A program made the translations under genes and the position numbers. From a virus, in IMG/VR virus record IMGVR_UViG_3300028393_000212, positions 1 to 33,320 of that record: 33,320 nucleotides of DNA. The stretch is one strand, 5' to 3'. Numbering within the stretch: the first letter of the stretch is position 1; each line of letters opens with the position of its first letter. Shown here one piece after another: positions 12,468 through 28,128 of the stretch. The notes under the pieces are model-generated. The model worked only from the letters and a program-made list of their open reading frames with translations, was not told the DNA's origin and did not search any database.

Positions 12468-12721
12468 CTCAATACCACTACTCGACGCAGGGTTTCATCA
12501 ACAATCTCTTCACCCGTTTCCTCGTCGAATTCTGTGTCGTATTCGTTCTCAACCATCTTGTCCATGCGATGGTAGTCACTGTAGACCACTGCACCCACAT
12601 CAACCCTATCAACCTTTGGGGCCACTTCTGTGCGCCAGTGGTCGCCATAGTTGTAGGCATAATGTACTTGAGCCTCAGGGTCCAGACCCTGCAACATCTC
12701 AATCAATTCTTTAACTTGCAT
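12464..12721 (-). CDS. Conserved small phage protein, 85 aa
   Basis: 85 aa. MQVKELIEMLQGLDPEAQVHYAYNYGDHWRTEVAPKVDRVDVGAVVYSDYHRMDK follows the 'L-x-x-LDP-x-A-x-V' pattern of a small family frequent in phages and plasmids; the rest is acidic. GGAGCGAACC precedes the ATG. No promoter lies immediately upstream: the nearest is at 13098, about 375 bp away, across the structured leader. Confidence 0.75.
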   Translation of the reverse strand: MQVKELIEMLQGLDPEAQVHYAYNYGDHWRTEVAPKVDRVDVGAVVYSDYHRMDKMVENEYDTEFDEETGEEIVDETLRRVVVLS

Positions 12722-12739
12722 GGTTCGCTCCTATAAATT

Positions 12740-13095
12740 AGATTGGCCTTACATCAGCTTTCGCATGAATGCCTTAAATGGCGCCCCTGTAGGAGTTTCA
12801 CCTACTCACTGCCCTGAGTTGCGAACTCAGCGTGGATTCCCGGGACATAAACTTCAGTTAGAAAAGAACTAAAGGAACGTGTACATCTATCTCTACCACT
12901 AGGCAACGTCTGCACTAGGGCCTGTACTGTCATTACTTCCTACATACTCCGCCGCTTCTCTGGGATTATTTCCGTATCATCTAAACGGACCCCTGTTTCA
13001 TAGACTTACTTAGAGCGTACCCGTCGGTACGGTTCCTCGCCATAAGCCCCTAACGGTGTAGGTAACCTTTAATACTTTTCTAACTGTTCATGTGC
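12740..13095 (-). ncRNA. Candidate structured RNA / long leader
   Basis: About 350 nt with no credible gene, transcribed from a perfect promoter. A long-range stem pairs 13075-13086 (CAGTTAGAAAAG on the RNA) with 12855-12866 perfectly. After a 4x4 internal loop it continues with AAAGG/CCTTT (13066-13070 with 12871-12875). It encloses hairpins CGTACC-GACG-GGTACG (13016-13031) and CCGT/ACGG (12972-12988). Downstream are CTGAGTT-CGC-AACTCAG (12814-12830) and GTAGG-TGAAACT-CCTAC (12789-12805). No tmRNA, RNase P or group I core is recognisable. It may be a free ncRNA or the leader of the 85-aa gene. Confidence 0.55.
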
Positions 13096-13113
13096 TTATT
13101 ATAGCACATGAAC
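13086..13113. promoter_or_regulatory. 10-bp palindrome around a -10 box
   Basis: GTTCATGTGC and GCACATGAAC flank 8 bp that contain TATAAT. This is the geometry of a repressor operator, and could equally be a 5' hairpin. Confidence 0.65.
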
Positions 13114-13126
13114 CTAACCTTGTCAA
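13098..13126 (-). promoter_or_regulatory. Consensus sigma70 promoter of structured leader
   Basis: Perfect TTGACA, 17 bp, TATAAT, inside the palindrome at 13086-13113. Confidence 0.9.
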
Positions 13127-13133
13127 TTCACTT

Positions 13134-13202
13134 TCACTTTGGACGGGTATTACAAGTTTCAATACCCCTGAAGTGCCACTTTCTACAGTGTGTACATTCC
13201 AT
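13134..13202 (-). CDS. 22-codon CxxC microprotein
   Basis: MECTHCRKWHFRGIETC and five further residues (22 in total), with Cys3, Cys6, His10 and Cys17, which could form one zinc knuckle. It has a full expression set: a perfect promoter at 13229-13257, AAGGAGCACACT directly before the ATG, and the next promoter right after its stop. Its short length makes chance possible, but the dedicated promoter and ribosome site do not fit chance well. An internal hairpin (GGGTATT/AATACCC) lies in the coding part. Confidence 0.55.
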   Translation of the reverse strand: MECTHCRKWHFRGIETCNTRPK

Positions 13203-13228
13203 AGTGTGCTCCTTGTTGCTAAGTGTTA

Positions 13229-13257
13229 ATTATACTCTCAGGCCAACACATTGTCAA
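13229..13257 (-). promoter_or_regulatory. Consensus sigma70 promoter of microgene
   Basis: Perfect TTGACA, 17 bp, TATAAT, overlapping the 3' end of the 96-aa gene at 13238. Confidence 0.9.
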
Positions 13258-13528
13258 CCACTGTCAACATGTTAGCAGGCACTCTCCACTGACCCATGCC
13301 CGTGTCCACTGTGACATATTTGATGGCCACTTTGGTTACAAAGCCACGTGTGAGTCTGCCTGTCTTTGAGCTGGTGAACTCCACGTTATCGCCTGGACGG
13401 ATTGAACGTTTGATCCTCTGGGCCAATTGTGCTTTGTTCCATTTCACTGCATCAATCATGCTGGAGAGTTCTGTGTTGGTCCAACTCTGCAGCATGATAG
13501 CTGAATTCACTTGTTGAATGGTTAGCAT
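13238..13528 (-). CDS. Small phage protein with SH3-like C-terminal half
   Basis: 96 aa. The N-terminal helical half is WTNTELSSMIDAVKWNKAQLAQRIKRS. The second half, RPGDNVEFTSSKTGRLTRGFVTKVAIKYVTVDT, has the 'GDxVxFxxxxxGxxxxGxVxxxxxxxVxV' pattern of a small beta barrel (KOW/SH3-like), followed by QWRVPANML. I associate this architecture with T4-like phages. Nucleic-acid or protein binding is plausible. GGAGCGAAA precedes the ATG. Confidence 0.75.
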   Translation of the reverse strand: MLTIQQVNSAIMLQSWTNTELSSMIDAVKWNKAQLAQRIKRSIRPGDNVEFTSSKTGRLTRGFVTKVAIKYVTVDTGMGQWRVPANMLTVVDNVLA

Positions 13529-23429: not shown

Positions 23430-23590
23430 CACACGAATACCATTGTGTGCATGTGGACAAGGTTCCTACATATATATTAGCATGGATGGTGGAAACATTT
23501 GGGCCCGCAGGAAGTCGCTGGTGGCACAACAATAACAAAATCTACTTCAGAGATGAAAAGGATTGGATGTGGTTTGAATTGAGGACATGA
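23426..23590 (+). CDS. LRW-family protein, 54 aa
   Basis: 54 aa from ATG 23426 (ATGA overlap); a longer frame start at 23384 is rejected. YILAWMVETFGPAGSRWWHNNNKIYFRDEKDWMWFELRT is nearly all family motif, ending in WFELRT where others have WFxLRW. The shortest member, so it shows the minimal unit. Confidence 0.7.
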   Translation: MTHEYHCVHVDKVPTYILAWMVETFGPAGSRWWHNNNKIYFRDEKDWMWFELRT

Positions 23591-24399
23591 TGAAACGACT
23601 ATTATTTTTAATCTGCTTTATTAGTACAAGTGTATTTGCAGACGGTGCTTATGCATTGTATGATTACGACCAAAGCGAATATCAAGTATCATTTAATACG
23701 TATGAAGTAAGACCTATTGCCAGTATTACTAAGTTGTTTACGGCTATTACTATTTTGCGAAGCGGTGCTGATCTAAACGAAAAAGTAAAAGTCAACGGTA
23801 AAAGTGGCGGACACTTTCCTAATGGCATGCTAGTCAGTAGGCATGACTTGATGAAGGCCATGATGATTAGCAGTGATAATCGTGCCGCTGAAACATTGGC
23901 CAATACTTACCCTGGCGGCTTTAATGAGTTTATCAAAGATGCTAACGCATACATTCGAGGTCGTGGCCTGATACATACCAGTATTGAAGAGCCCACAGGC
24001 CTAAGCCGTAATAATGTAAGTACAGCTAATGAGTTGATCAGTTTCTTAGGAGCAATTAAAGACAATGAAGCACTAAGAAACTATGCAGATGATAAAACAG
24101 CAGAGATCCTAATCCCTAAAGGCAAGAAGTACATACATATCCAATTGCATAATACCAATCCTAGTATCTTCAAGTTTGATAATATACTAATTAGTAAGAC
24201 AGGGTTTACTAATCCAGCAGGCCGATGTGTTGTCATGCTAGTTGAAAAGGACAAGCGTCACTATGGCATTGCAGTATTAGGGCAGAAGAATGTTAACGAG
24301 CGTAGTCAATTGGCAAACGGTTTAATTACTACGCCACCTTTGCCGACTAAACCTATAGAAAAGAAACCTGACCCAATACAATTTGACTTGCCAATGTAA
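23587..24399 (+). CDS. Secreted D-Ala-D-Ala endopeptidase/carboxypeptidase (peptidase S11)
   Basis: 270 aa. A Sec signal peptide (residues 1-18, ending SVFA) is followed by a complete S11 domain: SITK at 46-49 (nucleophile Ser46), SDN at 96-98, KTG at 204-206. Length and motifs match PBP7-like enzymes, which cut D-Ala-DAP cross-bridges, or DD-carboxypeptidases. It should act in the periplasm on host peptidoglycan. A Pro-rich tail (TPPLPTKPIEKKPDPIQFDLPM) replaces the usual membrane anchor. It sits in the middle of the early operon, not next to lysis genes. Confidence 0.9.
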   Translation: MMKRLLFLICFISTSVFADGAYALYDYDQSEYQVSFNTYEVRPIASITKLFTAITILRSGADLNEKVKVNGKSGGHFPNGMLVSRHDLMKAMMISSDNRAAETLANTYPGGFNEFIKDANAYIRGRGLIHTSIEEPTGLSRNNVSTANELISFLGAIKDNEALRNYADDKTAEILIPKGKKYIHIQLHNTNPSIFKFDNILISKTGFTNPAGRCVVMLVEKDKRHYGIAVLGQKNVNERSQLANGLITTPPLPTKPIEKKPDPIQFDLPM

Positions 24400-26976: not shown

Positions 26977-28128
26977 ATGAAAAAGTTATTGTGTATTGTA
27001 ATTCTTGGAATCTATACAACTACGTCGTTGGCAGAATCCGAAAGTGTTTTGGATCATTGGGCCACTGGATTTAATTTTACTAACAATACTTATTTTTTTA
27101 AGAAATCGAATAGTGCTAAAACTTCTGTAAGTTTGTCAAAAAATCTTTCAATTGAGAAAGAAATTCCATCCGTAACTGATGATGTAAAAGAAATTATGGA
27201 TTCGCAAGGAACTAGGATTGTTTTGCTTTCAGTTAATAAGAAAATTGTATTAGAAAAGTACCTTAAGAATTCCTTGAAAGATTCTACACCATTAGCTTTT
27301 TCAATGTCAAAAAGCCTAACCTCGCTTGCAATAGGTCAAGCATATTGTGCAGGAAACATTAAAAGTCTTGACGATAGTGTAACAACATATGTTCCTCGTT
27401 TAGCTAACACATCCTGGGGTAACTCAACTGTAAAACAAGTGTTACTCATGAATAGCGGCAGTGCTGTTGGGAACTTTGAGTCTGGTTGGAGTGCCGAACA
27501 TGTCAAATTTCAAAATAGTTTTATATATAGCGGTTGGAAATATAAAGATTATGTTGATGATATGATTGCCAATGATGATAAAAAATTTAAACCCGGAGAA
27601 GTTTTTCAATATAATAACTATGATACAGTTGCCCTTGGACTTATAATTGAAGGAGCTGTTAAAAAAGAATTTGTGGAATATTTTCATGAATCTATTTGGG
27701 CGTTAGTTGGTGCCGAACACGATGCATCATGGTTAAGAAACAGAAACAATCAAGCCGCTACCTACAACGGTTTTAGTGCATCTCCCGAGGACTATATTAG
27801 ACTTGGCCATTATATTAACAGTCTTTACAAAGACCCTTCATCATGTATGGGGAAATACCTAAGAGAATCTATTAAACCAAAACAGCAAGTTTCTCCAACA
27901 AGATGTTACGGTTATCAAATTTGGACTTGGTGTGATGAAAAATACGGGTTTTTCTTTGTGGGTTACGGTGGGCAATATTTGATAATGCAACCGCAACGAG
28001 ATATTGTATATTATGTTCATCAAGGCTCCCAAAAAAATGACGCCAAGGTAATTTCTTTATACTCAAAAATGGTTAATCATTTATATAAAAATAATTTTAA
28101 TATAGCCAATGCTCAAATTTTTGATTAG
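26977..28128 (+). CDS. Secreted class C beta-lactamase-fold serine hydrolase
   Basis: 383 aa. A Sec signal peptide (1-19, ending SLA) precedes an S12 domain: SMSK at 109-112 (nucleophile Ser109, Lys112), YNN at 212-214 (the YxN motif), GYGGQ at 329-333 in place of KTG. This layout matches esterases, DD-peptidases and 6-aminohexanoate-dimer-hydrolase-like enzymes more than true beta-lactamases. The gene is visibly more AT-rich than its neighbours and stands alone after a terminator, which suggests acquisition from a bacterium. It should act in the periplasm. Confidence 0.85.
   Translation: MKKLLCIVILGIYTTTSLAESESVLDHWATGFNFTNNTYFFKKSNSAKTSVSLSKNLSIEKEIPSVTDDVKEIMDSQGTRIVLLSVNKKIVLEKYLKNSLKDSTPLAFSMSKSLTSLAIGQAYCAGNIKSLDDSVTTYVPRLANTSWGNSTVKQVLLMNSGSAVGNFESGWSAEHVKFQNSFIYSGWKYKDYVDDMIANDDKKFKPGEVFQYNNYDTVALGLIIEGAVKKEFVEYFHESIWALVGAEHDASWLRNRNNQAATYNGFSASPEDYIRLGHYINSLYKDPSSCMGKYLRESIKPKQQVSPTRCYGYQIWTWCDEKYGFFFVGYGGQYLIMQPQRDIVYYVHQGSQKNDAKVISLYSKMVNHLYKNNFNIANAQIFD

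Follow-up and report, generated by a model that had tools for sequence, protein, structure and literature searches.

The window, which is the whole stretch of DNA analysed here (the linear, 33,320-base IMG/VR virus record IMGVR_UViG_3300028393_000212), encodes on its minus strand a conserved structured RNA, RNA-A. RNA-A is probably the product of a stand-alone gene of large phages; host polymerase would transcribe this gene early, and the folded noncoding RNA would act in trans. Its promoter, its conserved fold, its presence in one copy per record and its independence from any one neighbouring gene are shown at the level of sequence. A single copy, near-invariant junctions and dozens of compensated pairs in more than 100 large-phage contigs speak for strong selection on RNA-A, although neither Rfam 15 nor any of the named phages tested contains it. 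As no known RNA family matches, we regard RNA-A as a categorically new family; a new mechanism is not shown.

The original prediction placed a perfect promoter ahead of some 375 nt without a gene, and this held: 377 nt separate the -10 box from the ATG of the next ORF at 12721, and no minus-strand ORF of 50 or more amino acids occurs in these 377 nt. Perfect promoters of this sort number 13 in 15 kb, that of RNA-A among them (Table 1), and the others of the block mostly lie 20-35 nt from their ORF, as judged by eye; the further claim that the long gap is unique in the block is not strictly established, and one other spacing (10866 to 10706) amounts to about 160 nt. The predicted RNA size of about 350 nt failed, the stretch comprising a conserved RNA of about 242 nt and two independent small modules, and RNA-A is not peculiar to the early block, with about half of its relatives near tRNA genes, many of them in arrays. 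Position 1 of our covariance model coincides with the expected transcription start (13091); the discrete size and the ends of the transcript are nevertheless inferred from sequence alone, without expression data. No terminator was found in the window between RNA-A and the following ORF of 85 amino acids, so a fraction of RNA-A may be read through and serve as a leader. The -10 box is the centre of a perfect 10-bp inverted repeat, GTTCATGTGC-TATAATAA-GCACATGAAC (13113-13086, minus strand), which recurs in L040, L054, L004, L072 and L090; the repeat is operator-like, and one may conjecture that a regulator acts on the RNA-A promoter. A tiny ORF with a CxxC motif, MECTHCRKWHFRGIETCNTRPK, is found at 13202-13134 (minus strand) with its own perfect promoter at 13257-13229.

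Table 1. RNA-A, its helices, its promoter and the adjacent small modules: positions in the window
Feature	Position	Strand	Partner, motif or evidence
Promoter TTGACA-N17-TATAAT	13126-13098	(-)	sigma-70-type, 12/12 match
RNA-A, conserved structured RNA, 242 nt	13091-12850	(-)	R1 match 192.7 bits, E 2e-53; covariation; fold z -3.2
P1 5' strand CAGTTAGAAAAG	13086-13075	(-)	partner 12866-12855; both sides vary in all 15 pairs of the helix; 88% of cells paired
P1b AAAGG	13070-13066	(-)	partner CCTTT 12875-12871; 98% paired
P2 CCTAC	13062-13058	(-)	partner GTAGG 12943-12939; 99% paired, double changes in 4/5 pairs
P3 CCGTT	13056-13052	(-)	partner GGCGG 12953-12949; 100% paired, double changes in 3/5 pairs
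P4 arm	13049-13002	(-)	inner hairpin CGTACC-GACG-GGTACG 13031-13016; double changes in 7/8 pairs
P5 arm, variable hairpin after conserved ATGAAA	12994-12961	(-)	alignments and covariation ranking
P6/P7 arm	12927-12881	(-)	P7 loop AGACGTT (12911-12905) conserved
P1 3' strand CTTTTCTAACTG	12866-12855	(-)	partner 13086-13075; covariation of the same helix
tRNA-like module, separate	12846-12779	(-)	GTCCC..GGGGC ends, anticodon-like arm CTGAG-TTCGCAA-CTCAG, encoded CCA
Small conserved leader hairpin GGCATTCA..TGATGTAAGGCCAATC before 85-aa ORF	12773-12741	(-)	same element in L103, L069, L022, L054

The closing pairing held exactly as it had been proposed: P1 is an exact 12-bp helix with its strands 209 nt apart, followed by a symmetric internal loop (UAUU/AGUU) and five further pairs, and the enclosed hairpin with the GACG loop held as well. 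In the architecture predicted by our model, P1/P1b, P2 and P6/P7 meet in one three-way junction, closed by P1/P1b; P2 runs on through P3, which would close another such junction, with P4 and P5 as its arms. P2 becomes CCTAG/CTAGG and P3 reads CCACT/GGTGG in other clades, and P4 holds the two top-ranked covarying column pairs. The strongly conserved core amounts to about 175 nt with conserved junctions; unpaired conserved stretches are UUA after P1b, AUGAAA between P4 and P5, CAGUAAUGA between P2 and P6, and the P7 loop, which displays GAC or GAT (GAU in RNA) in 85 of 89 distinct sequences, counted on alignment columns, above a stem that varies by compensatory change. The 242-nt core folds with an energy of -75 kcal/mol, below all dinucleotide shuffles (-60.3 +/- 4.5; z -3.2), and the whole 354 nt also beats every such shuffle (z -2.8; plus strand, z -1.05). 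Stability alone is weak evidence, and homologues were therefore examined.

First relatives, 90 viral loci in all, were obtained via two neighbouring proteins and one DNA pattern; the RNA was found in relatives at about 70-85% identity by BLASTN, and its conserved core by MAFFT. The pattern GGTTACCTANACCRYTAGG led to 116 viral stretches, almost every one of which has the complete core. Our covariance model, R1, based on 41 homologues, recovers 114 of these 116 contigs and about 17 that lack the exact pattern, which by our tally brings the total to about 131 IMG/VR contigs. These are for the most part fragments of large phages, with lengths of up to 356 kb, and the carriers are described as large freshwater phages. 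A second pattern, TAGGMAGTAATGACC, gave chance matches almost throughout and a single new member (L227); the chance loci served as negative control and, apart from L227, score at most 18.5 bits with R1, whereas accepted members range upward from 29.5 and 42.7 bits. When large records of up to 356 kb, possibly fragments, were searched in whole, exactly one copy was found in 23 of 24; the array locus L183 has two tandem copies. Under stricter filters, R1 found no match in nine whole phage records (PA5oct, Paride, Atu_ph07, Phosso, Vibrio 2.275.O, S-SRM01, T4, XacN1 and phiCbK), which include the nearest named relative of the window's DnaB-like helicase (PA5oct, 49.6% identity). BLASTN of the window, L107 and L174 against named phages returned no RNA-A, only matches to tRNA-Asp or replication genes, and a plasmid search with an array copy yielded a sole match, to a stretch beyond RNA-A. 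One exact match of the first pattern in a genome collection, in an Algoriphagus assembly, was dismissed as chance, with the rest of the core missing. The open-access literature we searched holds no description of RNA-A, subscription papers being mostly out of reach.

Two alignments substantiate the fold. The first (A1; 41 diverse members) was made with MAFFT without reference to structure or to the covariance model, and is the basis of an RNAalifold fold of 47 pairs, 36 of them with double changes. In it, 88.6% of cells pair, compared with 69.9% after shuffling, and both sides have changed in 385 cells, against 124.6 in shuffled columns and 60-113 with slid partners. In the second (A2; 89 distinct sequences), which is fitted to the covariance model, the corresponding values are 91.2% against 67.8% for pairing and 978 against 299 for double-sided changes. 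When all column pairs are ranked by covariation, pairs of the model stand at the top and make up 22 of the first 31, and four others extend its helices, in P4, P5 and P6. With covariation beyond both column-shuffle and slide controls, RNA-A passes the general test for a structured noncoding RNA. The proposal of a new structured RNA thus held, on covariation in homologues and on the lack of an Rfam 15 match, and the outcomes named in advance as refuting it are absent: compensatory changes are abundant, no Rfam family matches and no gene is present. No ORF spans the RNA-A region, and indels between homologues can have any length, which speaks against a translated gene there. In some array copies (e.g. 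L160, L107, L171, L175) the 5' strand of P1 doubles as the 3' arm of a hairpin located immediately upstream, whose 5' arm recurs at the 3' end of P1 (e.g. CATATGAA), so that two folds compete.

How does RNA-A compare with known RNAs? Against Rfam 15, the window region 12600-13300 gave no match at E<=10 to any family, including RNase P, tmRNA, 6S, group I and II introns, riboswitches, GOLLD, ROOL, T-box and YrlA, which bears out the earlier failure to match it to such classes by inspection; nor did eight homologous loci match over the RNA-A core at E<=5. At gathering scores, 17 loci returned tRNA, tmRNA and GOLLD. GOLLD (RF02032) and ROOL are structured RNAs of phages and prophages, of unknown function and often near tRNA islands, which greatly exceed RNA-A in size and assemble from RNA alone into homo-oligomeric nanocages (PMC12286853); the tRNA-island context is the only trait they share with RNA-A, which has about 175-240 nt and matches neither model, and in L171 GOLLD is a separate gene in the same array. 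The stable RNAs C and D of phage T4 (species 1 and 2; 119-139 nt) are likewise small and are encoded in the phage tRNA cluster, but an unfiltered R1 search of their region found nothing above noise (best 13.1 bits, outside both genes). Phage-borne tmRNA is present in the RNA-A loci L107, L109 and L118, while RNA-A itself has no tmRNA match. The company of GOLLD, tmRNA and tRNA arrays makes it testable what the non-tRNA RNAs of phage tRNA islands do.

Is RNA-A a gene of its own or the leader of another? In 76 of 96 loci a promoter of the form TTGACN-N16-18-TAYAWT is found no more than 300 nt upstream, at distances that cluster at 8, about 72, 108-116 and 165 nt. Because such promoters abound in these blocks, their mere presence weighs less than the fixed spacing; in about 30 loci the -10 box lies 8 nt before model position 1, from which transcription should start at P1. 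A cis-regulatory leader, i.e. a riboswitch or T-box-like element controlling the downstream gene, is an alternative. In its favour, 12 loci, the window included, have no promoter between RNA-A and the next ORF, the closing stem and junctions resemble those of aptamers, and, as in T-box riboswitches, a loop exposes a codon-like triplet, here GAY, the codons for Asp. However, in 33 of the 47 loci without a close downstream tRNA a further promoter precedes the next ORF, and the next proteins of these 47 loci fall into 21 unrelated clusters, so that the coherent set of downstream genes that would mark a riboswitch is lacking; tRNAs follow many copies, RNA-A is single-copy per record, and Rfam gives no riboswitch or T-box match. 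Moreover, a gene in L002 that is 99% identical to that of the window's 85-aa protein is preceded by another gene and not by RNA-A. We therefore consider a leader improbable: the promoters of the next genes and their 21 unrelated families argue for an independent RNA gene. That RNA-A is such a gene, structured and single-copy, has good support from sequence and is the likely reading, its expression and timing being inferred. In ten loci (L069, L022, L028, L014, L013, L037, L102, L113, L177 and L203) the promoter and RNA-A are separated by an additional domain of some 90 nt (GGGTCGTAGCCAAGGGATACGAAGCGAGTTTGGAGACTCGGCC).

A same-strand tRNA gene lies within 600 nt of RNA-A in 50 of 100 loci, the context known for RNAs of phage tRNA islands, though the window's copy is not within a tRNA array. 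RNA-A often stands directly before tRNA genes (0-9 nt), and the next downstream tRNA is tRNA-Asp(GUC) in 28 of 45 loci and tRNA-Glu in 10, Asp accounting for 7% of the tRNAs in these loci. This count takes in related loci, and shared descent inflates it; on a quick, weakly resolved tree, Asp adjacency changes state 13 times, as does the array or lone context, and the adjacency is also seen beyond arrays, in near-lone units under a promoter (L068, L071, L090, L094, L110). Given that relatives sit within tRNA arrays and that tRNA-Asp is the most frequent gene immediately after them, we infer that the work of RNA-A would concern tRNAs or the takeover of translation during phage takeover of the cell, a link that seems probable although nothing yet connects RNA-A with a partner or an activity. 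In this scenario, host polymerase would use the sigma-70-type promoter of RNA-A early, with transcripts beginning at the base of P1; P1, the closed stem of the folded RNA, would carry two three-way junctions stacked on each other (P1b/P2/P6 and P3/P4/P5), and the RNA would then act in trans. Early timing and action in trans are inferences, and the molecular action could be catalysis or the binding of a protein, a tRNA or the ribosome.

The same neighbourhood invites two other explanations. RNA-A could serve, as a ribozyme or processing element, in the maturation of the linked tRNAs or of the polycistronic transcript, with which its frequent position directly before tRNA genes and its conserved core and junctions would agree; yet it is about as often not beside a tRNA, Rfam holds no RNase P or ribozyme match and we noticed no invariant cleavage-site sequence, which makes this unlikely. 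Still less likely is a mobile element or a remnant of a group I-like intron: its varied places and at least 13 switches between array and lone context on the quick tree would fit, but RNA-A is single-copy per record, has its own promoter at fixed distance and shows no intron match in Rfam, nor was a linked endonuclease seen, although without a systematic search.

Within our preferred reading of a trans-acting RNA gene, a bolder version can be formulated from sequence alone. As GAC or GAU, the codons for Asp, appear in the P7 loop above a freely changing stem, and as the gene frequently has tRNA-Asp(GUC) as its immediate downstream neighbour, RNA-A might bind tRNA-Asp through a codon-anticodon-like loop-loop contact. 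If so, it would shield, deliver or titrate tRNA-Asp during takeover and represent a new kind of tRNA-dedicated viral RNA. We hold this to be doubtful. A conserved loop of five bases contains three triplets, so that a coincidental GAY has, by our own estimate, a chance of about one in ten. Covariation of the P7 loop with the adjacent tRNA is unsupported, as tRNA-Asp loops read UUGUCUA or YUGUCAC without a matching change, and RNA-A copies beside tRNA-Glu likewise show GAY. Of the tRNA-Asp(GTC) genes, 17 of 44 (L107, L137, L068, L071, L110 and others) carry U37 in the anticodon loop (UUGUCUA and kin), a position that is nearly always a purine in the other tRNAs of these loci; by analogy, this might confer resistance to anticodon nucleases (compare PMC10264068).

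Two further hairpins had been proposed downstream, and both are real (12830-12814 and 12804-12788), but they belong to the separate tRNA-like module, which, like the small leader hairpin, folds no better than shuffles. This module has 12 distinct relatives with ends that have changed yet still match, several of them in tRNA arrays; ARAGORN did not call the window's copy. This second, unlisted RNA occurs, besides the window, in L040, L059, L090, L097, L108, L135, L136, L158, L174, L180 and L184, with covarying ends (GTCCC/GGGAC, GCTC/GAGC), the signature TCCACG..GTTCGCAAC..GGCAGT, an encoded GCCA and longer forms in tRNA arrays. The small leader hairpin is also found near other genes. A recurrent array element of about 75 nt, for which no Rfam match was noticed, consists of a stem, GAGAGYCAC/GUGGCUCUC, around AUCGCCUGGAYACUUC..CACUAGGUCCUGCAACC, followed by T-rich DNA (L096, L098, L100, L101, L107, L115, L117, L121, L122, L127, L131, L134, L137, L143, L160 and L193). 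Two other conserved elements, each closed by a long stem (CATTGTTAAGTGTTATC..GATAACACTTAACAATG and TTTTGCTGACGTAAG..CGTCAGCAAAA), are located downstream of RNA-A, ahead of the tRNA that follows it (L155, L180, L195, L204 and L097, L184, L193). Elsewhere in the window, on the plus strand, a beta-lactamase-fold protein (26977-28128; PF00144, PHROG tail/lysin) and a D-Ala-D-Ala carboxypeptidase-like protein (23587-24399; PF00768) are encoded, both of which are likely phage cell-wall enzymes.
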